Below, piece by piece: positions 2 through 22,921 of a stretch of DNA of 22,921 bases. The translations under genes and the position numbers were made by a program. The notes beneath the pieces were generated by a model, which saw only the letters and a program-made list of their open reading frames with translations, was not told where the DNA came from and did not search any database. How positions within the stretch are numbered: position 1 is the first letter of the stretch; the number at the start of each line of letters is the position of its first letter. Source of the stretch: a virus; the IMG/VR virus record IMGVR_UViG_3300010883_022232, positions 1 through 22,921 of that record, one strand, 5' to 3'.

Positions 2-1048
2 GTTGAGGTTACGCTGTCAGAAAGATTTTCGAAGCAAGTCCTTAAAGTAGAGATGCCGGTTATTAACACCCAGCTTCAAGCACTAAGCTGGGTAAAGGAT
101 ACGTACTCTGTTAAACTTTTTTCTCATACTAGGCATATCGAAAAGATGTTAGAAAAATATGCAGATCTTAGAGATAAAATACAGGAATTTGCAGGGTTAG
201 CAAAACAGTTTGATATGCTAGACAAACATACTTGCAAGTTACGAAGGTTCCTAGAGTTATATGAAAAAGATAATTGGGTCGTTAATGTGATTCCAGCAGA
301 CGGTAGGTCCGGCAGGAAAATAGAGTTTAAACCTATTGACGTAGCCCCATACGCTGAGCCTATGCTTTTTCGACTAGGGAATAAAATATTATGCATGTCT
401 GCTACAATATTAAATGTTGATGCGCACTGTAAGATGTTGGGGATCCCCAGGGATGAATGTGAATTCATCTCAATACCATCGCCCTTCCCTGTCAAGAATA
501 GGCCGATTATTACATGTGGGATAGGCAGTATGTCTGCGAAACAGATCGACAATACATTACCTCAATTGGTAAAAGCAGTTAAAGAAATATTACGAGCCCA
601 CCCTAAAGAGAAGGGGATTATTCATTGTCATACTTTTAAAATAGCAAACTATATTAAAAGAAATATAAGAAGCAACCGATTGCTAGCGCATGACAGTACA
701 AATCGAGAAGAGACTCTTAGAAAGCATCTAAGGGCATCTTCACCAACGGTCTTATTATCCCCATCAATGACAGAGGGGGTTGACCTGGTCGATGACGCTA
801 GCAGGTTCCAGATCATATGTAAGGTGCCTTATCCATACCTAGGAGACAAACTTATCCGTAAAAAGATGAATAAGTGGCCTTGGTGGTATTCATTAATAAC
901 CGCGAAAACAATTGTTCAGGCAACTGGCAGGAGCATAAGAAATAAAGATGACACTGCTGTTACATATATCTTAGACGGAGATTGGGACATGTTTTATAGT
1001 AAAAATACCCGCATATTCCCGCGAGGGTTTAGGGATTGCATTACATAG
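2..1048 (+). CDS. Rad3/XPD/DinG-type helicase, C-terminal part (5' end outside window)
   Basis: The frame is open from base 2 to the TAG at 1046-1048, with 17 codons before the first ATG at 53, so the true start lies left of the window. What is visible is the second RecA-like half of an SF2 helicase. It has an SAT-type motif (CMSATI, just after LGNKIL), the IIHCHTFK strand, motif V (SMTEGVDL) and motif VI (QATGRSIRN) with its arginine finger. This form of motif VI is typical of the XPD/Rad3/DinG group (Helicase_C_2) rather than of UvsW or RecQ. Such enzymes unwind DNA 5'-3' using ATP, often with an Fe-S domain in the missing N-terminal half, so that feature cannot be judged here. A role in phage replication, recombination or repair is inferred. 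The next gene starts 23 bases downstream. Confidence 0.8.
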   Translation, partial: VEVTLSERFSKQVLKVEMPVINTQLQALSWVKDTYSVKLFSHTRHIEKMLEKYADLRDKIQEFAGLAKQFDMLDKHTCKLRRFLELYEKDNWVVNVIPADGRSGRKIEFKPIDVAPYAEPMLFRLGNKILCMSATILNVDAHCKMLGIPRDECEFISIPSPFPVKNRPIITCGIGSMSAKQIDNTLPQLVKAVKEILRAHPKEKGIIHCHTFKIANYIKRNIRSNRLLAHDSTNREETLRKHLRASSPTVLLSPSMTEGVDLVDDASRFQIICKVPYPYLGDKLIRKKMNKWPWWYSLITAKTIVQATGRSIRNKDDTAVTYILDGDWDMFYSKNTRIFPRGFRDCIT

Positions 1049-1751: not shown

Positions 1752-2927
1752 ATGTCAACATTCAAAGAACATAAAACTAGCGCAGACAGATCAGCTTCAG
1801 ATCGACGTCGCCACAAGCAAAAAATAGAAAGAGCCATAAAAGATGGGATCTATGACATTGTTGCAGAAGAGTCTATAATAGGCAAAGATGGAAAGAAGAC
1901 TGTCCGTATTCCTGTAAGGGGAATTAAGGAATATCGCTTCATATATGGTGACAACGAATCTAATAAGCAGGTTGGATCAGCCGGTGGCAAAGACGTAAAA
2001 AGAGGGCAATCCGTTGGGCAGGCACCTGAGGGTAATAATCCCGGCCAGGCAGACAAAGCTAGCGATGGTGAGGGTGAAGAGTATTATGATGTTGAAATAA
2101 CTCTTAATGAGTTAGCAGAATACCTTTTCTCTGACTTAGAGTTACCAGACTTAGAAAAGAAGAGAATAAAGAACATAACATCGGAAAGTATTAAACGTCA
2201 CGGGTACAGAAAGAAAGGTATTCGACCTAGGTTAGATAAGAAAAAAACTGCGATTAATAGAATAAAAAGAAAAAAAGCTAGTGAAAGAATACACGGGCCA
2301 AATGAAGAGGGAAGATTTACATTCCATGAGGATGATCTAACCTATAGGCACCTAAAGAAGTCTACAAAAGAAGCTAGTAATGCAGTTATATTCTTTATAA
2401 TGGATATCTCTGGGTCAATGACAAAAGAAAAAAAGTTTTTAGCACGAAGCTTTTATTTCTTGCTTTATCAATTTTTAAACCACCGTTACGAAAACATAGA
2501 TATTGTATTTTTAGCACATGATACCTTATCATATGAAGTAAATGAAGAACAGTTTTTCACTAGAGGAAATAGCGGTGGGACCGTTGTGTCTGTGACGCTT
2601 CAACACGCATGTGATATAATCAATCAGCGATATCACCCAGATTTTTGGAATATATATTGTTTTCAATGCTCAGATGGAGATAACTGGCCAAGTGATACAG
2701 ATGTATGTATCGAAACGGCTAGGATACTTAAGGAAAAAACGCAATTGTATTGCTATTGTGAGATAGAGCCAAGCAAAGATCGGTTATCATGGCTTTCAGA
2801 TGAGTCTAGATTATCAAACACATTTTCTCCATTGTGCGATAAACAATTTAAAATTGTTAAAATTATACAAAAAGAAGATATCTGGCCGGCTTTTAGCAAA
2901 GTATTTGGAGGAAGATCAAATGAGTGA
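1752..2927 (+). CDS. YeaH-like (UPF0229/DUF444) VWA-domain protein
   Basis: A 391-residue protein matching the YeaH/UPF0229 family along its length. The N terminus is basic (SADRSASDRRRHKQKI). A Gly-rich acidic linker follows at about 70-110, then a YeaH-type segment ending in a polar Lys-rich stretch, and a C-terminal VWA domain. The VWA MIDAS motif DISGSM is at 218-223, GGT at 275-277 and CSDGDNW at 306-312, so metal binding looks intact. In bacteria this protein is encoded beside PrkA/YeaG, and the pair acts in stress responses such as nitrogen starvation; its biochemical role is not settled. Here its stop overlaps the SpoVR start by 8 bases, so translation is probably coupled. Finding it in a phage-like context is unusual. 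E. coli YeaH is a little longer (about 430 residues); the central segment is shorter here. Confidence 0.88.
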   Translation: MSTFKEHKTSADRSASDRRRHKQKIERAIKDGIYDIVAEESIIGKDGKKTVRIPVRGIKEYRFIYGDNESNKQVGSAGGKDVKRGQSVGQAPEGNNPGQADKASDGEGEEYYDVEITLNELAEYLFSDLELPDLEKKRIKNITSESIKRHGYRKKGIRPRLDKKKTAINRIKRKKASERIHGPNEEGRFTFHEDDLTYRHLKKSTKEASNAVIFFIMDISGSMTKEKKFLARSFYFLLYQFLNHRYENIDIVFLAHDTLSYEVNEEQFFTRGNSGGTVVSVTLQHACDIINQRYHPDFWNIYCFQCSDGDNWPSDTDVCIETARILKEKTQLYCYCEIEPSKDRLSWLSDESRLSNTFSPLCDKQFKIVKIIQKEDIWPAFSKVFGGRSNE

Positions 2928-4227
2928 TTGGTCGTTAGACGCACTAGCAGAATGGGACAAAAAGATTGCAAAATTAGCAAAAGGTCATGGACTTGACTGG
3001 TATCCCATTGTTTACGAAACATGCGATTACTACGAAATGATAGGCAACATGGCATATCATGGCATGCCAAGTCATTACTCACATTGGTCACATGGGAAAA
3101 GTTTTGAAAGAACCCAACAGATGTATAATGCCGGGGTGGAAGGCCTTCCTTATGAGTTAATAATAAACTCAGATCCATCAGTGTCTTATTTGATGCGAGA
3201 AAACCCACTTTATTTACAGGTTCTTATAATGTGTCATTGTGTAGGACATAGTGATTTTTTTAAAAATAATAGAATGTTCTCTCACACTAGGGCGGATACC
3301 GTAGTTTCTAGATTTAGGAATGCAAAAAAAAGAATTCAAGGTTATGTAGAAGATCCAAGCATTGGAGTAGAAAGTGTTGAAGAAATTCTAGACGCTGCGC
3401 ATGCTATACAGTTTCAGAGGCCTCACACTTTTCATGAAAGAGAATCAGACAAAAAAATAAAAAAAAGATGGGTTGACCTAGTAAAAAACGACTCCAGCGA
3501 AAAATACGATAATATTGACATAGAGAAAGTACCAATTGAACCAGACTATAATATATTGGGGTTTATCTCTGAACACTCTAGAAACCTAGAGGACTGGCAG
3601 AGGGATATAATAGAGATCGTTAGAGATCATGCATCTTACTTTATGCCTCAAATTCAAACAAAAATTATGAATGAGGGATGGGCGTCTTATTGGCATTATA
3701 GGTTGATGCATGAACTAGAATTACCAGATAGTTTGCATCTTCCGTTTTTAAAAAGTCATAACCAGGTTATACGACCCCATATCGGAGGAATTAATCCTTA
3801 CCATATGGGATTTTATATGTTTAATAAGATAGAAGAGAGGCATGGGTTGGAAGAATGCTTTATTGCAAGGGAGACATCTAATGATTCTGCATTTCTTAGG
3901 CAGTATCTTACTGAAGAAGACTGTCAGGAGCTAAACCTCTTTTCATATGCAAATAAAAAAGGCACCTACACAATAGAAGAGATATCAGATGATGATGGAT
4001 GGAAGTTGGTAAAAAAAGATCTTATCTCAGGTGTTGGCACGAATAACATGCCGAAAATTTATGTTGATGAAATAGTAGATGGTAATATATTGGTCTTGAA
4101 CCATGATCATGATGGAAGAGATCTAGATCTAACCCACGCAGACGAAGTTGTTATGCATGTTCACACATTATGGGGTGATATTGCAAAACTTGATACTATT
4201 ATAGAAGATGAACCATGGGAGATCTAA
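2920..4227 (+). CDS. SpoVR/YcgB family protein
   Basis: The start at 2920 is preferred because GGAGGA lies 6-7 bases upstream and the protein then begins MSDWSLDALAEWD as in the SpoVR family. The frame is open further upstream, but that part lies inside the preceding gene. The product is 435 residues, against roughly 470-510 for bacterial SpoVR/YcgB. Family signatures are clear: an N-terminal HGLDWYPIVYE region, HCVGHSDFFKNN at 106-117, and NEGWASYWHYRLMHEL at 251-266, with several His residues that look metal-binding. In Bacillus SpoVR affects spore cortex formation. In non-sporulating bacteria the homologue is co-regulated with PrkA and YeaH, and its activity is unknown. Here it sits between its two usual partners, 22 bases before the PrkA gene, which strongly suggests one functional unit. 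Confidence 0.9.
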   Translation: MSDWSLDALAEWDKKIAKLAKGHGLDWYPIVYETCDYYEMIGNMAYHGMPSHYSHWSHGKSFERTQQMYNAGVEGLPYELIINSDPSVSYLMRENPLYLQVLIMCHCVGHSDFFKNNRMFSHTRADTVVSRFRNAKKRIQGYVEDPSIGVESVEEILDAAHAIQFQRPHTFHERESDKKIKKRWVDLVKNDSSEKYDNIDIEKVPIEPDYNILGFISEHSRNLEDWQRDIIEIVRDHASYFMPQIQTKIMNEGWASYWHYRLMHELELPDSLHLPFLKSHNQVIRPHIGGINPYHMGFYMFNKIEERHGLEECFIARETSNDSAFLRQYLTEEDCQELNLFSYANKKGTYTIEEISDDDGWKLVKKDLISGVGTNNMPKIYVDEIVDGNILVLNHDHDGRDLDLTHADEVVMHVHTLWGDIAKLDTIIEDEPWEI

Positions 4228-4249
4228 TTATGCTTAAGGGAGCACACTA

Positions 4250-6178
4250 ATGTCAAAAGAAAATTTTCTCAAAATAATAGAAAAGCAGAGAAATAAAAGT
4301 AAAAAACCTAAGTTCAAGGGCACCTTTATAGATTACCTAGATATTGTCAGTAAAGATCCAAGTATAGTAAAGTGGTCGCACAAAAGGTTATATGATTCCA
4401 TAGTTTCCCATGGGATTAGTGCTATGGATGATACAGATCCAAGAAAGCATAAGCTTTTTGATGGAGAGCCTATCAAAATATATGATTATTTTGATTCAGA
4501 ATTCTTTGGTGTTGAAAATGTCGTAGCCAAGATCATGCGATTTTTAAGATCCGCGTCGCTTAAAGGCGAAGAGAGCCGGCAGATACTATTATTAATGGGA
4601 CCTGTTGGTGCAGGGAAGTCAGCACTAACTGAGCATATAAAACGTGTGTTGGAAGGAGAGTCTTACTATCACCTTAAGGGTGATCCGCAAAGGGGCGAGC
4701 CACTTCATTTGATACCCCGCGGGCTAAGGGATCGTTTCGAAAAATTACTTAAACTAAAAATAGAAGGTGACATAAGCCCTATTGCTAGGCACCACTTATT
4801 GGGCGAGTTAAACGGTGAATATGAAAAATTTCCCATTGTTGAGTCAACATTCTCGCAGCGCGCTCGGCGTGGGATAGCGTCGGTACCGCCTATGGATGCC
4901 AATAGCCAAGACACTAGTGTCTTGATAGGATCTGAGGATATATCTAAATTAGACCTATATCCTGAAGATGACCCTAGGGCATTATCTCTTAATGGCGCGT
5001 TCAATGTCGGCAACAGAGGGATCGTAGAAATGATTGAGATGTTTAAAAATGAGATTGAATTTTTACACACTGTCATTACTGCGACACAAGAGAAAAGGAT
5101 CCCTAGCCCAGGAAAACATGACATGATTTATTTTGACGGTGTTATACTGGCACATTGCAATGAATCTGAGTGGAATAGGTTTAGGAGTGAACACACAAAT
5201 GAGGCTATACTTGATCGTGTAGTAAAGGTTGATGTCCCATATGTTCTAGAGCTAGAACAGGAGATGAAGATCTATGAAAAACAGTTAAGCAGATCAGATT
5301 TTAAGGCGCACATTGCACCCCACACAATCAAGGTGGCATCAATGTTCTCTGTAATGTCTAGGCTTAAGCCTTCCCAAAAGTGTGACCTGCTCACAAAGAT
5401 GAAAATCTACAACGGCGAAGATGTTATTGAGAAAGGCCGTGTCAAAAAAATTGATATTAAAGACCTGCGCGAGGAAACTAGAAAAGAAGGGATGTCCGGT
5501 ATATCCACTAGATTTATTATGAAATCTATTGACGCTGCACTATCAGATAGTGACCGGGGCATGATATCACCTATTTCTATAATGGATTCTCTTACCAAAC
5601 AAGTTAAAGATCAAATTATTGATGAAGATTTTAGAAATCAATGCCTAGAATTAATACAAAAAGTCATTAGGGAAGAATACCTTAAAATCCTAGAAACGGA
5701 AATAGCCAAAGCATTTGTAACTGCTTATGAAGAAAACGCCCAAGCATTATTTGACAACTATCTAGATAATGCAGAGGCCCATACAACAAAACAAAGGCTC
5801 AAAGATAGAGTTACTAGAGAAGAGATGGAGCCGGATGAGTATTTCCTTAAGGCAATTGAAGAACAAATTGGAATTACTGGATCTTCTAGAGATGGATTTC
5901 GTAGCGATGTGACCGCCTATATGTTTGCAAAAATGAGAAGAGGCGAGAGTGTTAACTTTAAAAGTTATGAACCCTTAAAAGAAGCAATTGAAAGTTATCT
6001 AATAGCTTCTGTCAAAGATATGGCTAGAATAGTTACAAAATCAAAGACTAGAGATGATGATCAACAAAAGAAATACGGCGAAATGGTTAATACACTTATC
6101 GAAGAATATGGGTATAACGAAGACTCCGCGGAAGAGATCATAGTTTTTGCTAGCAACAATTTGTGGCGTGATAGTTAG
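4250..6178 (+). CDS. PrkA/YeaG-like AAA+ serine protein kinase
   Basis: A 642-residue protein, almost exactly the length of bacterial PrkA/YeaG (about 630-645). The order is an N-terminal PrkA-type AAA+ domain with Walker A GPVGAGKS at 117-124, the family segment RRGIASVPPMDANSQD near 206-221, NRGIVEMIEMFK at 255-266, HCNESEW at 302-308 and LDRVVKVDVPY at 321-331. A C-terminal PrkA domain follows, with a GISTRFI-type segment, and a long helical end. In bacteria PrkA is described as a Ser/Thr kinase, and a Lon-like protease activity has been proposed for the Bacillus protein. It works with YeaH and SpoVR in stress adaptation. AAGGGAG lies about 10 bases before the ATG. The last gene of the presumed operon, it is followed by about 100 AT-rich bases with no strong terminator. 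Confidence 0.9.
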   Translation: MSKENFLKIIEKQRNKSKKPKFKGTFIDYLDIVSKDPSIVKWSHKRLYDSIVSHGISAMDDTDPRKHKLFDGEPIKIYDYFDSEFFGVENVVAKIMRFLRSASLKGEESRQILLLMGPVGAGKSALTEHIKRVLEGESYYHLKGDPQRGEPLHLIPRGLRDRFEKLLKLKIEGDISPIARHHLLGELNGEYEKFPIVESTFSQRARRGIASVPPMDANSQDTSVLIGSEDISKLDLYPEDDPRALSLNGAFNVGNRGIVEMIEMFKNEIEFLHTVITATQEKRIPSPGKHDMIYFDGVILAHCNESEWNRFRSEHTNEAILDRVVKVDVPYVLELEQEMKIYEKQLSRSDFKAHIAPHTIKVASMFSVMSRLKPSQKCDLLTKMKIYNGEDVIEKGRVKKIDIKDLREETRKEGMSGISTRFIMKSIDAALSDSDRGMISPISIMDSLTKQVKDQIIDEDFRNQCLELIQKVIREEYLKILETEIAKAFVTAYEENAQALFDNYLDNAEAHTTKQRLKDRVTREEMEPDEYFLKAIEEQIGITGSSRDGFRSDVTAYMFAKMRRGESVNFKSYEPLKEAIESYLIASVKDMARIVTKSKTRDDDQQKKYGEMVNTLIEEYGYNEDSAEEIIVFASNNLWRDS

Positions 6179-6555: not shown

Positions 6556-7944
6556 ATGAAATTCTCTAGAGTTCATATCAGTAATTATAGTGATACTAAA
6601 TCGTTACAATACATTCGAGAATTAGAAGTACTCTTGAATGATATCATCGAAAAAAAAGTATATCTAGATAACGGTAAAGGAATTATACAGCAACATTTTA
6701 CCGATATTCTAGATATACTAATGGAGAAACAAGAGCATGGATCTAATTTTTTAATTAGAAATGCATTGCTAGAAACTATATTTAATGCCAATAATAAATC
6801 ATCGTATGGTGGATTTTATGCATTTGTTTTCTTTTTAAAATATTCAAAATGGATTTTAAAAAATAAGATAGCAGGTAACCTTGAAGATATATCTATAGAG
6901 AACAAAGTCTCAGATATGTGTAGTTTATCAAGGGCATGTAATTTAGATACTATGATATCAATTTTAAAATCACACACCTCTGATGATTTTATAAGAAACA
7001 TTATAGAGTCTGCTACAGCATTAGCTGGGTTTGATGGACAAATCTATATTAATGATAAAGCCAAAGACAATAATTGTCTAGAGCTTATAATGGGAAATAA
7101 ATTCAATATATCACCCCATGAAGCATTTATCAATACCGGAAAGTTAAAAACTTGGGAAAGAAATGATGTTTGCTGTATAATCATAGATGGCATTGTAGAA
7201 AAAGTATCTGAGTTAGATAACATACTTTCTAAACTTTCACAAAATAAGCGGCCGGCAGTGATCTTTGCTAGGGGCTTTGGGGAAGAGGTTGTGGCTACAC
7301 TATTGGCAAACTTTCTAAAAGAAACACTAGATGTAATCCCATTTAAGGTAGCATATGATTTAAGGGGAGCGAATATGCTAAAAGATATTGCAGTCTGTGT
7401 TAATGGTGACGTAGTCTCATCACTTAAGGGTGAGTTAATAACTACAATAGACGTAGACGAATCCCCTTTTGCTGAGAGCTTCGCCATAGGTCATAAAAGT
7501 ATTATAATAAAAAATCCGGATGCAGCCTTAAATACAAAACTGCATATTAAAGAGCTAATAAAAGAATTAGATAGTTCCCATATGCCGGAAAAATTAAGAT
7601 TAATTAATGAAAGATTATCTTATATGGGAACTAGATGTGTTACTATTTCATTAAATGAACATAACAAAGAAAGGCTTAAGTATAAAAATGACAAAATACG
7701 TAACGGGATAAAATTAATTAATGATATTTCGCAACATGGCCATATTAACTTATCCAAACTATGCAATCATACTAAGTTATCAAATGACCCGCGGGCTAAG
7801 CCATTAATGCAGTCTTATAAAATATTTGAATCGTTAAACTTAAAGCTTATTTCTTCGCCATCTATTGTGCATGGTCTTATTAGTGGTTACTCGTTAGCAA
7901 AAACCATATCAAATTGTACAATTTTTGTAACTTCTGATTCATAA
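6556..7944 (+). CDS. Divergent GroEL/Hsp60-like protein with degraded ATP site
   Basis: A 462-residue protein (GroEL is about 545). Comparison from memory with E. coli GroEL shows collinear similarity. Residues 179-291 track the apical domain: FNISPHEAFINTGKL resembles the region ending YFIN, KRPAVIFARGFGEEVVATLLANFL resembles the [21 protein letters not shown] segment, and MLKDIAVCVNGDVVSS resembles MLQDIATLTGGTVISE. Residues 345-367 track the LQER...GGVAVI hinge, and 434-462 the C-terminal equatorial helix ending CMVTD. The nucleotide site is not kept. The DGTTTAT loop corresponds to YGGFYAF at 84-90, the catalytic Asp398 position looks like Asn383, and the GGG loop after it is missing, as is part of the C-terminal equatorial domain. 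So it is probably an ATPase-inactive chaperonin relative that might bind substrates or co-assemble with host GroEL. TAGGAA sits five bases before the ATG. Confidence 0.72.
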   Translation: MKFSRVHISNYSDTKSLQYIRELEVLLNDIIEKKVYLDNGKGIIQQHFTDILDILMEKQEHGSNFLIRNALLETIFNANNKSSYGGFYAFVFFLKYSKWILKNKIAGNLEDISIENKVSDMCSLSRACNLDTMISILKSHTSDDFIRNIIESATALAGFDGQIYINDKAKDNNCLELIMGNKFNISPHEAFINTGKLKTWERNDVCCIIIDGIVEKVSELDNILSKLSQNKRPAVIFARGFGEEVVATLLANFLKETLDVIPFKVAYDLRGANMLKDIAVCVNGDVVSSLKGELITTIDVDESPFAESFAIGHKSIIIKNPDAALNTKLHIKELIKELDSSHMPEKLRLINERLSYMGTRCVTISLNEHNKERLKYKNDKIRNGIKLINDISQHGHINLSKLCNHTKLSNDPRAKPLMQSYKIFESLNLKLISSPSIVHGLISGYSLAKTISNCTIFVTSDS

Positions 7945-8965: not shown

Positions 8966-9154
8966 ATGTCAAACGTATTAGAGAAATGGAATGAAATAAA
9001 AGTACTAGTTGAAAGTTTAGACCTAGACGTGCATAAAAACGCCGGCGGAAACTCATCTGCAGGAGTTCGAGCTAGAAAGGGATTGCGACTTCTTAAGAAA
9101 GAAGCTGCAGAGCTTGTTAAAGCAACAATTGAAGAAGAAAAAAGTAAAGGTTAA
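8966..9154 (+). CDS. Histone H1/Hc1-like small basic protein
   Basis: A 62-residue, Lys-rich protein. The core GNSSAGVRARKGLRLLKKEA at about 29-48 resembles the GNKAAGxRVRKxMxxLKxxA core of bacterial Hc1-like (histone H1-like) proteins, including the short form found in many Bacteroidetes. The Ala/Pro/Lys-rich tail of chlamydial Hc1 is absent. It is likely to bind nucleic acid and perhaps help compact phage or host DNA; this is family-based inference. AGGAGA lies close before the ATG, 12 bases after the previous stop. It ends only six bases before the 5' end of the tmRNA, so that RNA is probably processed from a transcript that also carries this gene. Confidence 0.62.
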   Translation: MSNVLEKWNEIKVLVESLDLDVHKNAGGNSSAGVRARKGLRLLKKEAAELVKATIEEEKSKG

Positions 9155-9160
9155 CTACAT

Positions 9161-9558
9161 GGGGATGAACTGGTTTCGACAAGGTAAGAAAGTTTGAGGG
9201 TGCAAGTATCCAACCGTAATACATGGATTGACAGTGTTACAAACTTTAATTGCCAACGACAATGTTGAGTACGATTACGCACTAGCTGCATAATTGCGGG
9301 GTTTTCGGTGACCTTGTTATCAAAGCCGGATAAGTGGTTGATCTCACCGAAATAAAAAAGATTAAAAATGGTTCCCTGGCACAAACTTGCATCATTTAGA
9401 GATAAGTGACAACCTTTTGTTACAGGTGGATTTCCGAGGCCACATAAGAAATGGGAAAATTGTGGATACCTTGCTAGTTTGGGAATAAATTAGCTAAACT
9501 TGTGAATGACCTAATTATGAACTTATTTTGGACCCGGGTTCGATTCCCGGCATCTCCA
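9161..9558 (+). ncRNA. ssrA: Transfer-messenger RNA (one-piece tmRNA)
   Basis: The 5' end GGGGATGAACTGGTTTCGAC is the classic tmRNA start. The acceptor stem pairs 9161-9167 with 9551-9557 (one G-U), followed by discriminator A9558. The T arm is complete (CCGGG, TTCGATT, CCCGG at 9534-9550). Helix P2 is visible (9181-9188 with 9522-9529, some G-U), and a strong 9-bp stem joins 9303-9311 to 9344-9352. The resume codon is GCC at 9252, and the tag frame 9252-9290 reads ANDNVEYDYALAA, ending in TAA. ALAA is the ClpXP recognition end. CCA is not encoded (ACT follows the stem), so it must be added. tmRNA with SmpB rescues stalled ribosomes and tags products for proteolysis. The order is unpermuted, unlike alphaproteobacterial and cyanobacterial genes. 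It is full length, not an integration-site fragment. Confidence 0.95.
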
Positions 9559-9707
9559 CTTTTATACTAGTTATTAATAGTTAAATCGTAGAAATTACTA
9601 TGGCATCAACTTTAAATCAATTAAAACAAACGAATAATGCCGTTAATATTACGAAAAAACAATATACTTATAATCACGGTGCTAGCACAAATAATAAGGA
9701 GAATAAT

Positions 9708-10784
9708 ATGAGTGGTATAGAAGAGACACAGGACGATAACTACATCAATCCACCACTGGACGATTTTGGATTTTTAGGAAATTATGATGATGCTCCTGCA
9801 GCAGATGAGAGACTATTACCGGAAAATACTGCGGCTAGCGCAATCAAGTGTGGGTTTATAGGTATTGGAGGAGGCGGGGGAAAGCTAGCAAAAGCTTTTC
9901 TAGATTTAGGGTTTAATAAGACCCTAATTATTAATACCACGGTTAAGGACCAACCGGCTGGTCTAGACCCAAACCACTTTGTATTATTACCCGGGGCTGA
10001 CGGAGTTGGCAAGGATGTTGATCTAGGCAAAGAGATCCTAGGCAATAATAGCGCGATGGTTGAAGATGCTGTCCGAACTAAAATGGGACAAGTCGATTGG
10101 TTGTTTGTTTTAGCCGGAGGTGGAGGTGGTACCGGGAGTGCCTGCAAAGAATTACACACTGCACTAGAGAGGTACCTATCTTCGACTGAAGCATGTGGAA
10201 GGGTTGTATACATTGTAAGCAAGCCCACAGGGCAGGAATTATTAAACCCTACAATAAGTACAAACTATAGTTCATTGTTAAGTGACGTTGGTGATGTTCC
10301 ACATTTAGTAATTGATAATGAAAAACAGTTACAATTGCTAAGAGGTAAGGTTGGCATGTTAAACATGTTCCCGGCTGCGAACTCAACGTTTGCAAAACTA
10401 TTTCATCAGGTGTTAAAATTAGCCGATCAAAGCTCACCTATTCAAACGTTTGATACAAAAGACCTAGAAAGGTGTCTTAAGACGCCCGGGCGCCTTTTCT
10501 TAGGTAGCACCATTGTAAGAGACCCAAGCGACCCAGACCTAGGATCAACCATCTTCCAAGGAAGCCTAAGGGGATCACCTTGCCCTGCACCAACCAACAC
10601 TCCGGAAACAGGCGTTCTATTATTAATAGTCACATCAGCCATGGCTGGTGACCCAGAGATTAGTAAGAGACTAGAGGCAGCTTTCTCTTACGTAGGTGGG
10701 AGGACAAACACACTGTTCTCTGGTGTATATGTAAATGACCAGGTGCCTGGTTTAATTGGAATTACATTATTTGGTGGAATGTAG
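9708..10784 (+). CDS. Tubulin/FtsZ-like GTPase
   Basis: The start at 9708 is chosen because AAGGAGA lies 5-6 bases upstream. The frame is open to an ATG at 9600, but that stretch lacks a ribosome binding site and looks like leader. The product is 358 residues: an acidic, disordered N tail (about 1-45), then the tubulin/FtsZ GTPase fold with GIGGGGGK (T1) at 52-59, LPGADGVGKD (T3-like) near 94-103 and the tubulin signature GGGGGTGS (T4) at 137-144. The T7 loop TFDTKD at 247-252 keeps both Asp residues that complete GTP hydrolysis in the next subunit. So a polymer-forming, active GTPase is predicted. Phage relatives such as PhuZ form filaments that position phage DNA. No FtsA/ZipA-type C-terminal tail is seen, which argues against a host-type division FtsZ. 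The C terminus ends GITLFGGM. Confidence 0.83.
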   Translation: MSGIEETQDDNYINPPLDDFGFLGNYDDAPAADERLLPENTAASAIKCGFIGIGGGGGKLAKAFLDLGFNKTLIINTTVKDQPAGLDPNHFVLLPGADGVGKDVDLGKEILGNNSAMVEDAVRTKMGQVDWLFVLAGGGGGTGSACKELHTALERYLSSTEACGRVVYIVSKPTGQELLNPTISTNYSSLLSDVGDVPHLVIDNEKQLQLLRGKVGMLNMFPAANSTFAKLFHQVLKLADQSSPIQTFDTKDLERCLKTPGRLFLGSTIVRDPSDPDLGSTIFQGSLRGSPCPAPTNTPETGVLLLIVTSAMAGDPEISKRLEAAFSYVGGRTNTLFSGVYVNDQVPGLIGITLFGGM

Positions 10785-10785
10785 T

Positions 10786-11064
10786 CTATTTTTCTATAGT
10801 ATGAAAACTTCTTTTCTTAGACAGTTTTCCTAAAATGGATTTTTCTATTTGACATATTCTCATACGAGTGATACCAAAAATATCACCTATTTCTTGTAGC
10901 GTCTTTTTTCCTCTAGATGAGGATATTAACACACAGTTCATATCCTCACTAGAGTTCATCCAATATTTACAATCTTTTTTCTGGCATGAAACATTTAGTC
11001 TATCATGTTCATTAAAACATGTTGTATTACTTATTGGTTTATTTTCATTTTCCAAATATTTCAC
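10786..11064 (-). CDS. Sigma-region-4-like Cys-containing DNA-binding protein
   Basis: The only convincing minus-strand gene: 92 residues from GTG at 11064. Residues 55-81 (TLQEIGDIFGITRMRICQIE and the following helix) match the sigma-70 region 4 helix-turn-helix, where GxTRxRIxQIE is the recognition-helix signature. Before it are Cys16, Cys27, Cys32 and Cys44, which may bind zinc. Similar small proteins with a Cys-rich front and a sigma-4 helix-turn-helix exist in bacteria and phages. It lacks region 2, so it is not a complete sigma factor; a regulator or a partial sigma acting at -35-like elements is inferred. The start has only weak ribosome binding signals. It converges on the tubulin gene with one base between the stops, and its start faces the PhoH gene, so a divergent promoter region lies at about 11065-11145. 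Confidence 0.7.
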   Translation of the reverse strand: MKYLENENKPISNTTCFNEHDRLNVSCQKKDCKYWMNSSEDMNCVLISSSRGKKTLQEIGDIFGITRMRICQIEKSILGKLSKKRSFHTIEK

Positions 11065-12524: not shown

Positions 12525-13331
12525 ATGTCTAATGATGAAGTATCTATTAATCAAAGCTTAGGGGAACTCAAGAAAGAGAAGTTTCTAACTATCAAAAATG
12601 CCCAGACGCTTGAGTCAAAAAAAATAATAAGCTGCCCAGATTTGCAAGTTGGATTAAAAGACAAAAACTTTCCTTCTCGGGGATTAGTTTTTCCCGCGAA
12701 AGGCGCGCCGGTAGAAACTAGCGATAAGCTCTACAACCAATACGGTACACTTTATTTTGATGGTATACCGTTATTATCTGGGACCACGGGGACAGGCACA
12801 ATAACAAATGTTATCGCCGGTGGTGGTATAACGTCAACAGTGTCATCAGGTGTCGCGACCATTGAAGTAAAGTACAGTGCTGGCACGGACATAATATCTT
12901 CTGCTAATGATGGTACAACTGTCACAATTGACCCCATCAACGATAAAGTAATAATATTAGATAACACAGATAGCACCGTCAAGTATGTTAACATAAACCA
13001 GATTGCAGCTGTAACGGGGGATATCACGGCTGTTACTGCCGGTATTGGACTTACCGGTGGTGGGGCGTTTGGAGACGTTACTTTAAATATCAATGATAGT
13101 ATTGTCGCGACGCTCAGTGGTTCAGCATTTTCTGGGCATGTTATACCATCAGATGATTCTACATATAACTTAGGTAGTGCTAGCAATCGTTGGGCTAATA
13201 TCTATACTGGTGACCTTCACTTAAGAAATGAACGTGGAAACTGGACGATTGTTGAGGAAGTAGATTATCTCACAGTTGTTAACAACATTACTGGCAAGAA
13301 ATATAAGATGATGCTTGAACCTATAGACTAA
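12525..13331 (+). CDS. Fibre-like phage structural protein A
   Basis: A 268-residue, Gly/Thr/Ser/Ile-rich protein predicted to be mostly beta. The N-terminal 60 residues are charged and could attach to the virion. A LYNQYGTLYFDGIPLL segment follows, then a Gly-rich region, then GDITAVTAGIGLTGGGAFGD at 165-184, which recurs in the next gene. The C-terminal module at about 209-266 (TYNLGSASNRWANIYTGD, then RGNWTIVEE and KKYKMMLE) is shared with protein B. This type of C terminus is one I associate with structural proteins of marine T4-like phages. It is probably a tail-fibre, neck or baseplate-associated protein; attachment function is inferred. The ribosome binding site is weak. A 193-base AT-rich gap with no gene follows. 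Confidence 0.72.
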   Translation: MSNDEVSINQSLGELKKEKFLTIKNAQTLESKKIISCPDLQVGLKDKNFPSRGLVFPAKGAPVETSDKLYNQYGTLYFDGIPLLSGTTGTGTITNVIAGGGITSTVSSGVATIEVKYSAGTDIISSANDGTTVTIDPINDKVIILDNTDSTVKYVNINQIAAVTGDITAVTAGIGLTGGGAFGDVTLNINDSIVATLSGSAFSGHVIPSDDSTYNLGSASNRWANIYTGDLHLRNERGNWTIVEEVDYLTVVNNITGKKYKMMLEPID

Positions 13332-13524
13332 TTCTTTAATAAAAATATATTATTACCCCACTAGTTGTTGTGGCACATATGTTTACTTTTTAAAAAAAAA
13401 GTTAGATTAGCCGTGATATATACACGATTTACGCAATATTTAGAATTGGTGGATTTTGATTCATCATTTGTTTATAAACTAAGACAACAAGGGCTTTTTT
13501 AAAGCTAAATATTGGAGATTTTAA

Positions 13525-15087
13525 ATGGGTATTATTACTAGTAATATATCTGCATCAGCTGAAGGCGGATCTGCGTCGGCACCCGCGGGACGTATTGGTG
13601 TTACAGGGTCTATGCACCTACACAGTGGTAGCGGTGCAGACGGAGGTTATCTGATTTTTGATCAGTTGACCACATCAGGAGGTCCCGCGGTTCCCGGCGG
13701 AAACACTGGTGTTCTTTTTGTTTCGGGAAATAATGGAGGCGCAGTTGATATCTGGTTCAAAGAGCCAGGTGGTACTTCAGTTAACCTTTCTGCTGAAGGT
13801 GATATCACTGCTGTACGTACCAGTGCTAATAGTGGACTTACAGGAGGTGGAACTTCAGGAGACATAACGTTAAGTGTCGATAGCGCTATAATACCAAACC
13901 TAACAGCAAGTAATGCATTTTCCGCCGGAACAACTCAGTGGTTCTTAGGTAATGTCAATGTATCAGGAAGTGCTACTTTCGGAGATGGTAATACAGACAA
14001 ATTCAACGTTACTTCGGATGCATTGTTTAATAAGCTATTATGTTCTGGTTCGTTCCGATTTGGACATACTACCGGTGGTTCACGCGGCGATGGTGTTATC
14101 CAGGCGAAGGCACTGTCTCTTACGGCAACAGAGGCCTTAAGCTCAGTTGCGACCTTGGACTCCACGGTTACTGCTGGTACACATTTAATGTTAAACAGTA
14201 CCCTTGATACGTACGCCCAGGCTGCTCGGAAACTACTGTTGTCCGGTACAAATGGTGTTGATATTAATTCAACCAACAACGGTGTTATTAATGTCGGTGA
14301 CGGGGCACATACTGGTGCAATCAACGTTGGTACTGGTGCATCTGTTAGAACAATATCAATCGGTAACGAAACTGGAGCAACTGCTCTCGACATTGATACT
14401 GGTACGGGTGGAGTTACAATCGATTCCCAGGGTGCAGGTACTATTGCCATTGGTACTGAAGCCGATGCGGGCGCAATTAACATTGGTGTTGGTGCATCTG
14501 CTAGAACAATTACGGTAGGTAATGCTGCCTCTACTGCAGTCAACTTAAATGCTCTGGCATCTACGATAACCACTGTAAATGCTCTGGCCTTGACTGATGG
14601 CACTGCAACATTTCAGCTAGGTGGTACAGGTGCAACAACCCTTGCTGCAGCTACCACACTGGATTTGCAAACCACTGGTAATATTACTATTGATTCATCC
14701 GCTGGTACAATCGGTGTTGGTACCGATGATGTCGATGAGAATATCAGCATCGGAACCCTGGGTGAAAGAACGATTGCAATTGGAAGTGGTGATGCAGTCG
14801 CTATAAGTCTTACAGGTCCAATTGGTCTAACAGGTGCTGTTGGCCTAACCGGTAATATTACGCCGTCGGCGGATATGACATATAATTTAGGGACTGCGAC
14901 AATGCGGTTTGCTAACATATTTACTGGTGACCTTAACTTGCGGAATGATCGTGGAAACTGGACCCTCATAGAGGAAGCCGGCTTCATATCTTTCCGTAAT
15001 AATGATACCGGTAAGCGTTTCAAGATGCTTATGGAGGATATCACAGGTGACGGATCATATGGCCCTGGTCTTAACGGTGTACTATAG
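13525..15087 (+). CDS. Fibre-like phage structural protein B with internal repeats
   Basis: A 520-residue, Gly/Thr/Ala-rich beta protein. The start is supported by GGAG at 13514-13517. Residues 92-123 (GDITAVRTSANSGLTGGGT and on) repeat a segment of protein A. The middle has degenerate repeats of about 50 residues built on GAINxGxGASxRTIxxGN, seen at about 14315-14375 and 14470-14525, with a weaker copy (NISIGTLGERTIAIG) at about 14740-14785; this is typical of elongated fibre shafts. The C-terminal module (about 448-505) is shared with protein A: MTYNLGTATMRFANIFTGDL, RGNWTLIEE and KRFKMLMEDI, plus an extra tail ending GPGLNGVL. It is probably a trimeric tail-fibre or other virion surface protein. 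No enzyme motif is seen. A strong terminator follows 25 bases after the stop. Confidence 0.75.
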   Translation: MGIITSNISASAEGGSASAPAGRIGVTGSMHLHSGSGADGGYLIFDQLTTSGGPAVPGGNTGVLFVSGNNGGAVDIWFKEPGGTSVNLSAEGDITAVRTSANSGLTGGGTSGDITLSVDSAIIPNLTASNAFSAGTTQWFLGNVNVSGSATFGDGNTDKFNVTSDALFNKLLCSGSFRFGHTTGGSRGDGVIQAKALSLTATEALSSVATLDSTVTAGTHLMLNSTLDTYAQAARKLLLSGTNGVDINSTNNGVINVGDGAHTGAINVGTGASVRTISIGNETGATALDIDTGTGGVTIDSQGAGTIAIGTEADAGAINIGVGASARTITVGNAASTAVNLNALASTITTVNALALTDGTATFQLGGTGATTLAAATTLDLQTTGNITIDSSAGTIGVGTDDVDENISIGTLGERTIAIGSGDAVAISLTGPIGLTGAVGLTGNITPSADMTYNLGTATMRFANIFTGDLNLRNDRGNWTLIEEAGFISFRNNDTGKRFKMLMEDITGDGSYGPGLNGVL

Positions 15088-15111
15088 TCAATTAATAATT
15101 GATTAGCCTGG

Positions 15112-15147
15112 GCGGGTAGGACAATATTGTCCTACCCGCTTTTTTTT
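15112..15147 (+). terminator. Intrinsic terminator after fibre protein B
   Basis: A perfect inverted repeat of 14 bases per arm (15112-15125 against 15126-15139), GC-rich at its base (GCGGGTAGGAC) and with an AATATT centre that would form the loop. Eight T residues follow at 15140-15147. It is the strongest terminator in the window and separates fibre gene B from gene C. Confidence 0.93.
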
Positions 15148-15150
15148 GCC

Positions 15151-15176
15151 TATATATACATCATATATAATTAATC
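15151..15176 (+). promoter_or_regulatory. Possible promoter-like AT element
   Basis: Starts TATATATACATCATATA and contains TATAAT at 15166-15171, directly after the terminator and 30 bases before the ATG at 15206. It resembles the elements at 7964-7989 and 12492-12510. Gene C needs its own promoter because the terminator blocks readthrough, which raises the likelihood. Confidence 0.4.
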
Positions 15177-15205
15177 TAAAGGACAACTACTTTAAGGAGA
15201 ATAAC

Positions 15206-16876
15206 ATGCCATTGACAGGCGATATATCGGGATCATATGGAAAGTCTAGTATTATTGGTATTACCGGGTCGCTTGACTTAACATATGATGGTACGGGAAC
15301 AGAAGATGGATGGTTTCAGTTACAAGAAATGGCATCTAACCCTACCACACCATCATCAAATAAGGGAAAAATATTCGTTAAAGATAATGGGAGTGGTACC
15401 ACACTCCCTTATTTTATAGATGCTGCTGGTACAGTAACTAGTCTCCTAGGAGGTGGTAGTTCATCACCTGCAGGATCGGACAGCCAAGTCCAATATAATA
15501 ATGGTGGTTCACTTGGGGGTGCCTCTAGCCTAGTATATAATGACTCTACTCATAAGCTAGGCATCGGTACCACATATGCATCTACAGCACCACAAAACAT
15601 TCTGTCTGTTTACGGTGATGTCTCCGGAGATTATGTTGCTCTTATTGATAATGATAATGGTTCTTCCGGTCATGGTCTTAAGGTTACTAGTGACGGAACA
15701 GGCACCGGTACACACCTTTTGGATATTGAGTCTGCTAGCACTACATTATTTAGATTTAGAGGTGATGGAAGGGTAGGCTTTGGAAAGGTCACATCTCTCC
15801 CGGAGGCAATATTAACAGTCTCAAGTAGTAACGCGGATAGTGACCTCGCAATTGCTCATAAGATTCATCACATTGGTGACTCTGATACTCATATTGAATT
15901 TGCAGATGATATGATCCAGTTAACGGCTGGAGGAAGAACATTCATAAAGCTAGAAGAAGCAGGTCAAGATAAGTTAATAATTAACCATGGGGCCCTTGAC
16001 ATCGATCTAAAGGTCGGTGGTGAAAATAATGCTAATCTTATAAGGACCGATGCTGCAAATGATAGTGTGTACTTTAACGGTGGGTCTGCCTCCGGGGATG
16101 ATAATAGCTTTTGGGTATCTGGCTCTATAGGATCCCATGGCTCCGATAATCGAGGGACCGCTGTATTTGGTGGTGATTTAGTTTTAAGTGGAACAACCTA
16201 CACGCAGAATAATTTAGTGGTTGAAGATATAGATGCCGATGATGAGGGGACTATAACGATTGGTAATTCAGGTGGAGCAGTATACTCTACATTGACAACA
16301 AACCGGTATGGGCGTTTGACAGTTCAAACTAGAAATAATGGTAGGGATGGGGAAATTTGGTTAGATTCATCTGATGATATTGTTTTAGATGCTGGGGGAA
16401 CTGTGGATATTCGTTCTTCCGGAACTAGTGTACTGAAGATAACGCCTAGTTCTAGTGATGTGGTTATACAACCTCAAGTATCTGGGAAGGATATTATCCT
16501 CTCTTCACAATCTGGTAACACTATTATGACTGTAGATTCTTCTGATGAGTCTCTTATAATTAATAGGCGGTTGGGTTTAGGGATGGGTATGTTAAGTAGT
16601 ACCGGTACACTTTCTGCAGATGCCCCTTTTGTGATGATAGCAAATGGAGGAGCATCAGATATCACCGGTACTTTGGCAAATGCTACGTTCAGTGGTCAAA
16701 TTAAAGTAATTGTGGGAATGCAATTGAGTTCTGGAACATGTATATTATCTTACACAAATGCTGCAGGTAGTACAACTACAAAAACACTTACAAGTGGACT
16801 TGCTATAATGTTATGTAGTTTTGATGCAACAGGAAGTGGTGCTTATAGATGGTTTCCAATTGGTGATGTTAGTTAG
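15206..16876 (+). CDS. Fibre-like phage structural protein C
   Basis: The start at 15206 is supported by TAAGGAGA at 15193-15200. The frame extends to a TTG at 15146, but that lies in the terminator T-run. The product is 556 residues, beta-rich and low in complexity. It has an N-terminal GDISGSYGKSSIIGITGSLDL region, a Ser/Gly linker near 105-115, and many short strands such as LGIGT, DGRVGFG and TAVFGGDLVLSG. The C terminus ends AYRWFPIGDVS, a form often seen in phage fibre tips. Unlike A and B it lacks the RGNWTxxEE module, so it may belong to a different structural class. It is probably a tail-fibre or receptor-binding structural protein. No catalytic or self-cleaving chaperone motif is visible. 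Confidence 0.72.
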   Translation: MPLTGDISGSYGKSSIIGITGSLDLTYDGTGTEDGWFQLQEMASNPTTPSSNKGKIFVKDNGSGTTLPYFIDAAGTVTSLLGGGSSSPAGSDSQVQYNNGGSLGGASSLVYNDSTHKLGIGTTYASTAPQNILSVYGDVSGDYVALIDNDNGSSGHGLKVTSDGTGTGTHLLDIESASTTLFRFRGDGRVGFGKVTSLPEAILTVSSSNADSDLAIAHKIHHIGDSDTHIEFADDMIQLTAGGRTFIKLEEAGQDKLIINHGALDIDLKVGGENNANLIRTDAANDSVYFNGGSASGDDNSFWVSGSIGSHGSDNRGTAVFGGDLVLSGTTYTQNNLVVEDIDADDEGTITIGNSGGAVYSTLTTNRYGRLTVQTRNNGRDGEIWLDSSDDIVLDAGGTVDIRSSGTSVLKITPSSSDVVIQPQVSGKDIILSSQSGNTIMTVDSSDESLIINRRLGLGMGMLSSTGTLSADAPFVMIANGGASDITGTLANATFSGQIKVIVGMQLSSGTCILSYTNAAGSTTTKTLTSGLAIMLCSFDATGSGAYRWFPIGDVS

Positions 16877-17098: not shown

Positions 17099-17102
17099 TG
17101 TG

Positions 17103-19034
17103 ATGTTTGACAAAAGTTTGTTTGAAAATAAAGAAGGGGAGAAACTTGAGGATATAGTAACAGGGACTGATATTGTTTTTGTTTCTGATCTATTTGTTTC
17201 TGATTATGTTGGTGGTGCTGAGTTAACTACTCAGGCTCTGATTGACTCTTCGCCATTTACAGTTCAGAATATTCACTCTAGAGATGTAACCATGGCTCTA
17301 CTAGAGTCCGGACATCAAAAATACTGGATATTTGGAAACTACTCAGCACTTGATTATGAACTAATACCAAGCATTATAGCAAATTTAGATTATTCTATTC
17401 TTGAGTATGATTATAAATATTGCATTCAGCGTTCCCCGGAGCGCCATGCAGAAATATCCGGTAAAGACTGTGATTGTCATAATGACATTAATGGAAAAAT
17501 GATATCAACGTTTATGTTAGGTGCAAAATCTATATGGTGGATGTCTGAAAAGCAGCAAGAACTATATTGTGAAAAATTCCCTTTTCTTGCAGATGCTACG
17601 GATACTGTGCTTAGTTCAGTTTTTGATGATAAATTTTTTCTTACAGTCAAAATGTTACGTGAAAAATATAAAGATGTTGAAAGGAAAGGGTGGATTGTAC
17701 TTGGATCCACTAGCTGGATAAAAGGCTTTCATGAAGCAGAGCAATGGTGTAAGGACAACAATAAAGAATATGAGGTTGTTTGGGATATATCCTATGATGA
17801 TGTTCTAGAAAAACTAGCTACAGCAGAGGGGTTTGCTTACTTGCCCCTAGGCGGTGATACATGTCCTAGGATGGTAATTGAAGCTAAATTATTAGGATGC
17901 AAGCTTCATATTAATGAAAATGTTCAGCATGCTAAAGAGTTATGGTTTGATACTGATGATACCCTAGAGACTGAGTCTTATTTGTATGCTGCTCGTGAGA
18001 TATTTTGGAAAGGGATTAAGCATAACATGAATTATACACCTACCCTAAGTGGGTATACTACAACGCTAGATTGTGAAAAAAATGGATATCCATGGAAGCA
18101 ATCGATCAAATCAATGTTGGGATTCTGTGATCAAGTTGTTGTAGTCGATGGTGGTTCTACTGACGGTACGTGGGAGCAACTAGTTGAATGGGCTGATAAT
18201 ACTGAAAAATTAATTGCTCATAAGGAAGAAAGAGACTGGTCTGATAAAAGATTCGCAGTTTTTGACGGTGCACAAAAGGCTCTAGCTAGATCGCTTTGTA
18301 CGATGGAGTTTTGTTGGCAACAAGATGCAGATGAGGTGGTCCATGAAGACCACTATAGTAAAATGCTAGGCATGATGAAAAATTTTCCAAAAGAAGTCAA
18401 TGTAGTATGCCTTCCAGTTGTAGAGTACTGGGGAAATAAAGGGAAGATTAGAGTTGATGTTAATCCGTGGAAATGGAGGTTAAGTAGGAATAAGCCCCAC
18501 ATAACACACGGCATACCTCTAGAGCTTAGGATGACTGATAGCGATGGAAATATGTACGCAAAAATGGGTACTGACGGTTGTGACTATATCAATAAAGATT
18601 CAGGCCTAGTAATCCCACATGCAAACTTTTATAACAATGAAGCCCATACAGCCAGAATAGCTGCTATGAGTGGTAATAAGATGGCCCTACGCTCTTATGC
18701 TGAGTGGTTTATGAGATGTGTTGATCTGCTTCCTGGTGTACACCATTTTTCTTGGTTTGACCTTCCCAGAAAAATTAATACATACAAGAATTACTGGTCA
18801 AAACATTGGCAAAGTTTGTATGATATTAAACAAGACGATACCGCTGAGAATAATATGTTTTTCCAAAAGCCATGGGCTGAAGTCTCTAAAAATGATATTA
18901 GTTCATTGGCTGAGAAACTAGAATCAGAAATGGGCGGATGGGTTTTTCACGAGCCGGTTGATTTTAATAAGCCAACGCCAAGTCTAACTCTAGAGTCCGG
19001 CATGCCGGAAATAATGAAGGAATATGCTAAATAG
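17103..19034 (+). CDS. Two-domain glycosyltransferase (GT-B-like plus GT2/GT-A)
   Basis: 643 residues from ATG 17103, with CGGAG at 17091-17095; a GTG directly before is an alternative. The N-terminal half is GT4/GT-B-like: YVGGAE near 35-40, a segment ILEYDYKYC near 100, LGSTSWIKGF near 200-209, and a donor-site D-x7-E (Asp252 and Glu260 in GGDTCPRMVIEAKLLG). From about 310 a GT2/GT-A domain follows: YTTTLDCEKNGYPWKQSI, VVVVDGGSTDG near 345-355 and a DxD-type QQDADEVV near 406-413. The two folds in one chain suggest addition of two sugars in sequence. The GT-A part also resembles glycan-modifying enzymes of phages that act on virion proteins. It is the first gene of the sugar block, just after the fibres, so modification of fibre or host surface glycans is inferred. 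Sugar specificity is unknown. Confidence 0.8.
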   Translation: MFDKSLFENKEGEKLEDIVTGTDIVFVSDLFVSDYVGGAELTTQALIDSSPFTVQNIHSRDVTMALLESGHQKYWIFGNYSALDYELIPSIIANLDYSILEYDYKYCIQRSPERHAEISGKDCDCHNDINGKMISTFMLGAKSIWWMSEKQQELYCEKFPFLADATDTVLSSVFDDKFFLTVKMLREKYKDVERKGWIVLGSTSWIKGFHEAEQWCKDNNKEYEVVWDISYDDVLEKLATAEGFAYLPLGGDTCPRMVIEAKLLGCKLHINENVQHAKELWFDTDDTLETESYLYAAREIFWKGIKHNMNYTPTLSGYTTTLDCEKNGYPWKQSIKSMLGFCDQVVVVDGGSTDGTWEQLVEWADNTEKLIAHKEERDWSDKRFAVFDGAQKALARSLCTMEFCWQQDADEVVHEDHYSKMLGMMKNFPKEVNVVCLPVVEYWGNKGKIRVDVNPWKWRLSRNKPHITHGIPLELRMTDSDGNMYAKMGTDGCDYINKDSGLVIPHANFYNNEAHTARIAAMSGNKMALRSYAEWFMRCVDLLPGVHHFSWFDLPRKINTYKNYWSKHWQSLYDIKQDDTAENNMFFQKPWAEVSKNDISSLAEKLESEMGGWVFHEPVDFNKPTPSLTLESGMPEIMKEYAK

Positions 19035-19047
19035 CATTAAATATTAA

Positions 19048-20696: not shown

Positions 20697-20697
20697 T

Positions 20698-22577: not shown

Positions 22578-22583
22578 ATCGTT

Positions 22584-22921
22584 ATGAAAACTATATTCAC
22601 AAATGGTTGCTTTGACATTCTACATCTTGGCCATGTAGAATTACTTAAGTTTTGTTCTACCCTAGGTGACAAAGTTATTGTTGGTCTAAATAGTGACGCT
22701 AGCGTTACATCCCTTAAGGGAACATCACGCCCGATTAATAATCAATATTCTAGAAAAAATATGTTATTATCACTAAAATATGTAGATGATGTTATTATCT
22801 TTGATAAAAGTACGCCACACAACTTGATAAAACAACTTTCACCAGATATCATTGTTAAAGGTGGGGACTATAAGAAAGAATCTGTGGTTGGAAATGATAT
22901 TGCAGAAGTTGTTATATTTGA
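22584..22921 (+). CDS. ADP-heptose-type nucleotidyltransferase (HldE C-domain-like), partial
   Basis: The gene starts at ATG 22584, seven bases after the previous stop and with no clear Shine-Dalgarno. It runs off the window, with 112 codons visible. The protein starts MKTIFTNGCFDILHLGHVEL, the cytidylyltransferase-like HxGH motif (HLGH) of the HldE/RfaE C-terminal domain. LNSDASVTSLKG, TSRPINNQYSRK and IVKGGDYKKE follow the HldE order closely. That domain adenylates D-glycero-beta-D-manno-heptose 1-phosphate to make ADP-heptose. It starts as a free-standing domain, without the kinase half in front. A related glycerol-phosphate type cytidylyltransferase is less likely given KGGDY. The 3' end and any partner are outside the window. 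Confidence 0.82.
   Translation, partial: MKTIFTNGCFDILHLGHVELLKFCSTLGDKVIVGLNSDASVTSLKGTSRPINNQYSRKNMLLSLKYVDDVIIFDKSTPHNLIKQLSPDIIVKGGDYKKESVVGNDIAEVVIF

Follow-up and report, generated by a model that had tools for sequence, protein, structure and literature searches.

The IMG/VR virus record IMGVR_UViG_3300010883_022232 is a fragment of 22,921 bases, and its whole length is the window analysed here. The window contains three consecutive genes for the proteins YeaH, SpoVR and PrkA, which in bacteria form a set for starvation survival and spore formation. The set has been conserved in a large part of the bacteria, and its biochemistry is unsettled, with kinase, protease or neither as the candidate activities. 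The first gene (positions 1752–2927) encodes a 391-residue protein of the YeaH/YhbH/DUF444 family (Pfam PF04285, 373.1 bits against a cut-off of 27), in which an N-terminal region is followed by a von Willebrand factor A (VWA) domain with a metal-ion-dependent adhesion site (MIDAS) formed by D218-x-S-x-S222, T277 and D308. The second gene (2920–4227) encodes a 435-residue protein of the SpoVR/YcgB family (PF04293, 404.9 bits against a cut-off of 27). The 642-residue product of the third gene (4250–6178) belongs to the PrkA/YeaG family (PF08298, 447.9 bits, and PF06798, 261.6 bits; cut-off 25) and is composed of an N-terminal AAA+ domain, with the Walker A motif GPVGAGKS at residues 117–124, and a C-terminal PrkA domain. 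All three open reading frames (ORFs) are intact and are located on the plus strand. The start of SpoVR is the ATG at position 2920, which fits all relatives, rather than position 2800 given in a mechanical ORF list. The end of the YeaH gene, with its stop codon, overlaps the start of the SpoVR gene by 8 nucleotides in the window, and the overlap is 1, 4 or 8 nucleotides in 57 of the 79 loci measured, which suggests that the translation of the two proteins is coupled.

A scan of IMG/VR with the SpoVR of the window identified 193 relatives, and the gene order was compared in the best 80 of the 193 loci. The three genes occur together on one strand in the order YeaH-SpoVR-PrkA in all 80; a stricter profile applied to the same loci finds 79 complete trios and one contig that ends inside PrkA. 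The residues expected to be functional are conserved throughout the clade. The MIDAS motif DxSxS and T277 of YeaH are present in 79 of the 79 aligned rows, and D308 in 78, with one gap. The Walker A motif of PrkA follows the pattern GPVG[AS]GKS in 79 of 79 rows, with alanine or serine tolerated, and E260, E263, N304 and R323 are invariant, with N304 and R323 counted in 79 of 79. SpoVR retains the motifs HxxGH-DFFKNN and NEGWA; its residues H106, H110 and E252 are present in 81 of 81 rows, and E79 is also invariant. The C-terminal domain of SpoVR (PF24755) scores 27.5 bits against a cut-off of 27.6. The initial annotation of this DNA, made from the sequence alone, had described three consecutive YeaH, SpoVR and PrkA genes with their key motifs, and the coordinates, Pfam scores and clade-wide motifs agree with that description. 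None of the three proteins reaches the NCBIfam equivalog cut-off: YeaH has 400.1 bits against 467.95 for TIGR02877 (YhbH), SpoVR 284.2 against 679 for PRK11767, and PrkA 387.6 against 576 for PRK15455. By this test, the trio proteins would be classed as family members and not as orthologs of the Escherichia coli or Bacillus proteins, and the YeaH of the window as belonging to the same family as the sporulation protein YhbH without being its equivalog.

The genomes that carry the marine trio are those of tailed phages. Contigs of the clade reach 293 kb; the tailed-phage terminase TerL is encoded on the same contig in 13 of the 14 large records tested, and a T4-type major capsid protein of the gp23 family in 11 of 11. 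These genes exclude a bacterial origin of the contigs with trio loci, which the initial annotation had named as the finding that would speak against it, and together with the source of the window in a virus record they bear out its description of the genome as phage-like. The nearest named phages to the TerL of the clade are Flavobacterium phage immuto (41% identity), Microcystis phage Mel-JY01 and T4-like cyanophages (34–35%). In seven large records, PrkA precedes TerL by 80–102 kb, with both genes on one strand, and this position marks the trio as one orthologous locus that belongs to a single lineage of T4-type marine jumbo phages. A public contig of 305,838 bases (NHDW01000006.1), filed under the gammaproteobacterial metagenome-assembled genome 'Methylococcaceae bacterium TMED69', contains TerL, the gp23-type capsid protein and the trio, and is a jumbo phage of the marine clade that has apparently been misbinned. 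The T4-type late promoter (TATAAATA) is no more frequent upstream of YeaH than in shuffled sequences.

The trio is an insertion that has been kept by one clade and is not a universal gene set of the wider phage group. A helicase gene precedes the trio in many loci of the clade, and the gene block downstream of PrkA is conserved; in relatives without the trio, the helicase gene is located directly upstream of a groEL-like gene. The comparison of occupied and empty sites is based on loci selected by PhoH, which share a block of helicase, groEL-like, g156, g81, g62 and PhoH genes. A single-sequence scan gave no PhoH relatives, and a query with an alignment succeeded. In three of these loci (L461, L462 and L463), the positions of the helicase and groEL-like genes are separated by just one ORF of about 150–195 residues, and the trio is missing; L462 has another ORF in place of the groEL-like gene. 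More distant relatives that carry the block, including records of 309 and 340 kb, have no PrkA. The trio is thus missing from relatives that share the block and cannot be a core component of all of them. Six fragments without PrkA that were selected by TerL mostly end too early, on the side that matters, to be judged. Within the marine clade, pairs of members have proportions of synonymous differences (pS) of 0.65–0.84, which is near saturation, and of nonsynonymous differences (pN) of 0.07–0.23. These values indicate strong purifying selection, and together with the invariant motifs they show that the proteins are in use. A separate observation concerns a 340-kb viral record (L510/G631), which encodes YeaH, SpoVR and a 1090-residue PrkA-related frame with the AAA_PrkA match split in two pieces, an unusual insertion in PrkA.

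One tree was calculated for each of the trio proteins, with 97 taxa in each. The initial annotation had asked whether the phage copies form a separate clade or come from one host transfer, and had named the placement of each gene inside unrelated host clades as a finding that would speak against it. The marine phage copies form a single clade in all three trees (Shimodaira–Hasegawa approximate likelihood-ratio support 99–100), with the same bacterial neighbours. The sister of this clade in the PrkA and SpoVR trees is the same patchy group of bacteria, composed of Clostridia, Myxococcota, Bdellovibrionales and Flammeovirga, and the support for uniting the phages with this group is 91 for PrkA and 96 for SpoVR. 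The best YeaH tree contains the same grouping with weak support (50). The PrkA proteins of the patchy group are 52–60% identical to those of the marine phages. The congruence of the trees indicates that the trio entered as a unit, and the simplest reading is that it was acquired whole in one transfer. A contig within this sampling (L096, JADPRS010000007.1) is labelled 'Lutibacter sp. B2' and thereby Bacteroidota, yet its trio falls inside Clostridia, and the assembly is possibly mislabelled or contaminated.

The three genes are contiguous in many bacteria, and their usual order is PrkA-YeaH-SpoVR. It is also the order of the patchy sister bacteria, which makes the YeaH-SpoVR-PrkA order of the marine phages a rearrangement. 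The initial annotation was correct that the phage order departs from that of most bacteria; however, the order is not peculiar to this clade, because Thermus phages and five Bacillota loci, one of them in Sulfobacillus, have it as well. The shared order does not reflect a common origin of the marine and Thermus phage trios, since a single PrkA clade of the two is rejected (approximately unbiased test, p-AU 5e-5), and the arrangement in Thermus phages has a separate history.

Marine jumbo phages are one of several viral groups with the trio, and the search for the three families side by side in viral genomes, which the initial annotation had proposed, finds it in at least five other viral clades. 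Two further IMG/VR scans gave 234 and 474 PrkA stretches, which overlap each other and the 193 relatives and are therefore not additive; most of these stretches have the trio in the bacterial order. Viral PrkA is distributed among at least six separate clades of the tree. These include the marine clade, the Thermus phages, two more clades without near bacterial kin, a clade of alpha- and gammaproteobacterial type with two huge phages of about 635 kb, and a clade near Planctomycetota, Nitrospirota and Bdellovibrionota with a 595-kb huge phage. The tree indicates that several other large-phage lineages gained the trio independently of the marine clade. The IMG/VR contigs L329/L292 and L330 are probably bacterial and were left out of the evidence that viruses carry the trio.

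Solved structures provide a template for one of the three proteins. The PrkA of the window matches the solved PrkA structure 9xip over its full length (E = 1e-92), and two more PrkA entries exist; sequence searches identified no solved structure of YeaH or SpoVR. PrkA of Bacillus anthracis forms ATP-dependent oligomers, and the pure protein shows neither kinase nor protease activity (PMC13001217). The AlphaFold2 model of YeaH has a predicted local distance difference test (pLDDT) score of 73, and its best Protein Data Bank matches are VWA/MIDAS domains, the first of which is Rea1-MIDAS 6qtb (E = 2e-7), with other Rea1/Mdn1 MIDAS domains also ranked high. At the sequence level, YeaH leans towards VWA domains of the CoxE type, with VWA_CoxE matched in 20 of 36 members. 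PrkA leans weakly towards the dynein-related family AAA_5, which is matched below threshold in 11 of 12 members. The PrkA of the window does not reach the cut-offs of the MoxR and dynein-related AAA+ families (15.9 bits against 22 for AAA_5 and 12 against 27 for bpMoxR), and when the PrkA and MoxR profiles are compared, the two align over Walker B, sensor 1 and the arginine region (E = 0.006). A relationship of PrkA to Lon is rejected, because the match is confined to the P-loop region. The model of SpoVR is confident (pLDDT 90.8), and a fold search with it found no Protein Data Bank match at E ≤ 0.001. The invariant HxxxH pair and glutamate of SpoVR could bind a metal; however, SpoVR is not a zincin protease, because its HxxGH motif lacks the catalytic glutamate of HExxH and there is no fold match. 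The resemblance of the YeaH VWA domain to Rea1, together with the AAA_5 and MoxR leanings of PrkA, suggests by analogy that PrkA and YeaH form an AAA+/VWA remodelling pair in the style of midasin and MoxR, with SpoVR as a third subunit. In keeping with a VWA/MIDAS partner, YeaH adjoins SpoVR-PrkA in all loci. According to this moderately supported mechanism, PrkA would oligomerise and hydrolyse ATP, and the MIDAS metal site of YeaH would couple PrkA to its target or to SpoVR, as do the VWA partners of Rea1/midasin, MoxR and chelatase-type ATPases. SpoVR would complete the machine and may have a metal site formed from the HxxxH pair and a glutamate.

Upstream of the trio, the window begins with a phage DNA helicase gene (2–1048, plus strand; phrog_2488, E = 4e-74), the 5′ end of which is cut off. 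Downstream of PrkA is a GroEL-like ORF of 462 residues (6556–7944, plus strand), which matches only residues ~140–400 of GroEL (PRK12849, E = 8e-18; Hsp60 8u39, E = 2e-14). The GroEL-like protein evolves fast, with 21–42% identity within the clade, and is present in most loci with the block. A transfer-messenger RNA (tmRNA) with the tag ANDNVEYDYALAA is encoded at 9161–9559 on the plus strand (Rfam RF00023, 120 bits); part of the clade has a tmRNA at the same place, with varying tags. It is followed by a gene for a divergent FtsZ/tubulin-like GTPase with the motif GGGGGTGS (9600–10784, plus strand; FtsZ 4m8i, E = 2e-6), which is present in 15 of the 80 clade loci and has no relative among 50,697 named phage records. 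A small ORF with sigma-70 region 4 (10786–11064; PF04545, 36.5 bits), a candidate transcription regulator, is the sole gene of the window seen on the minus strand. Three consecutive tail-fibre-like proteins are encoded at 12525–16876 on the plus strand, the first two of which have a repeated motif in common at their C-termini (YNLG...RWANIYTGDLHLRNERGNW). The remainder (17100–22919, plus strand) contains a run of glycosyltransferase genes, a GDP-mannose 4,6-dehydratase gene (417 bits, above the cut-off) and an HldE-like nucleotidyltransferase gene that is cut by the contig end.

The kinship of TerL and a gene for a histone H1-like Hc1 protein of 62 residues (8966–9154, plus strand; PF07432, 37.9 bits) are weak hints that the hosts are Bacteroidota. 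The Hc1 gene is present in 10 of 11 large records of the clade and, among 14 control genomes, in Bacteroides only; the protein has no match in the named-phage collection. SpoVR was found in 6 of 296 Bacteroidota genomes sampled. If the hint is right, the phages bring a system that their hosts mostly lack. It is tentatively proposed, with a greater prospect of being wrong than right, that marine Bacteroidota jumbo phages install a foreign quiescence or stress programme by means of an AAA+/VWA/SpoVR machine, and do not boost an existing one.

When E. coli is starved of nitrogen, YeaG and YeaH work together as a 'metabolic brake', and YeaG needs its Walker A lysine K116 (PMC4664914, PMC10954441). 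From this analogy and from the name 'sporulation', it is plausible, as the initial annotation had suggested, that the phage trio puts its host into a starvation-like state. The best overall explanation, which in our judgement is evenly poised between right and wrong, is that the phages use a once-captured functional AAA+/VWA/SpoVR machine to hold the host in a stress-tolerant state. In this explanation, an ancestor of the T4-type marine jumbo phage group captured the complete functional trio once, from a bacterium; it was inserted between the helicase gene and the GroEL-like gene and has been kept since under strong purifying selection. During infection, the trio would most likely act on host proteins and keep the cell tolerant of stress and low in turnover, which may support the long infection of slow-growing ocean bacteria. 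Several points weigh against this explanation. The physiological role is transferred from work on E. coli and Bacillus, which are far from the likely host, and the host itself is pointed to by only the two weak hints. The trio is known here from genes and predicted proteins. The profile match of PrkA to MoxR is weak (hhalign probability 6%), and Lon outscores MoxR against PrkA, though over the P-loop only. SpoVR has no solved relative, and its putative metal site is deduced from conserved residues of the sequence.

The trio might instead be a dedicated chaperone-like machine for the handling of phage proteins, in virion assembly or in the turnover of phage and host proteins, beside the GroEL-like protein and the tmRNA. 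These two genes are indeed neighbours of the trio in the window, a Rea1/midasin-type VWA partner suggests the remodelling of complexes, and in Thermus phage Lalka8 the trio is located between the minor head protein and TerL, within the morphogenesis module. However, the tmRNA is present in only part of the marine clade, the marine trio is 80–102 kb from TerL and not among capsid genes, and close phage relatives make virions without it; we regard this function as possible but doubtful. Modification of the cell envelope, which would delay or control lysis or exclude other phages, is improbable: SpoVR owes its name to the formation of the spore cortex in Bacillus, according to literature cited in PMC4605624, and its conserved HxxxH and glutamate could form a hydrolase-like metal site, but no solved hydrolase matches the protein in structure, it lacks the catalytic glutamate of an HExxH zincin, and no signal for an envelope location was seen, although no search aimed at one was made. 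Counter-defence, in which the AAA+/VWA machine would dismantle a host defence complex, fits the generally useful host-takeover function expected of a trio that is frequent in large phages and was acquired independently by at least six viral clades, but is very improbable, since the copies in bacteria are mostly stress genes of the ordinary chromosomal kind.

The repeated joint capture of the trio and the retention of its catalytic motifs argue for one working unit, the activity of which pays off in infection. If the proposal of a foreign stress programme is right, capture by at least six viral clades would make the trio a module that large phages use generally for host takeover, and the phage copies would offer a tractable route to the biochemistry of PrkA-YeaH-SpoVR. 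The Thermus phages with the trio, which are cultured in laboratory strains of T. thermophilus, provide a simple genetic system for it. The results also offer a different reading of the 'sporulation' auxiliary metabolic genes of ocean viromes. In the Eastern Tropical North Pacific (ETNP) oxygen-minimum-zone virome, spoVR is the most abundant of these genes, and it has been suggested that viruses help their hosts to sporulate (PMC8940887). The spoVR gene of the present phages makes up a third of a stress module, and therefore sporulation is not the obvious reading.

The marine trio can be compared with bacterial, phage and mechanistic counterparts. The bacterial set (yeaG-yeaH and ycgB of E. coli; prkA, yhbH and spoVR of Bacillus subtilis) comprises the same three families at full length with key motifs intact. 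By contrast, the phage copies form their own clade, fall below the equivalog cut-offs, are ordered YeaH-SpoVR-PrkA and are located in a phage genome. The Thermus phages phiYS40, TMA, phiLo, MN1 and Lalka8 have the full trio and share its gene order with the marine clade; however, their proteins are ~20–31% identical to the marine copies and form a clade of their own. The records of these phages annotate SpoVR and a 'serine kinase' side by side. The huge phages LR745206, LR756502, LR756504 and LR756511 (595–642 kb) also contain all three genes, but in the order PrkA-YeaH-SpoVR, with SpoVR distant in LR756502, and in clades separate from the marine one. The gene list of the Ralstonia jumbo phage RsoM2USA, the source from which this phage is known here, includes SpoVR, PrkA at a distance of two genes from it, and a VWA protein of 209 residues; the paper does not treat these genes as a set (PMC8504454), and the phage collection searched has no record of RsoM2USA. 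Rea1/midasin, MoxR-VWA, RavA-ViaA and BchI-BchD each combine an AAA+ ATPase with a VWA/MIDAS domain, as proposed for PrkA-YeaH, but have no known SpoVR-like third subunit, and PrkA is outside their AAA+ families by Pfam cut-offs. No description of the trio as a phage module was found in the literature searched, which excluded subscription papers such as that on the phiYS40 genome. The system is known from bacteria, and its prevalence and repeated capture in phages are so far unreported. The locus of the window is a genuine and complete copy of this bacterial system, carried by a phage and maintained by selection, co-inherited from a single origin at a site that is empty in relatives, and its interest lies in prevalence and repeated capture rather than in a new type of system.

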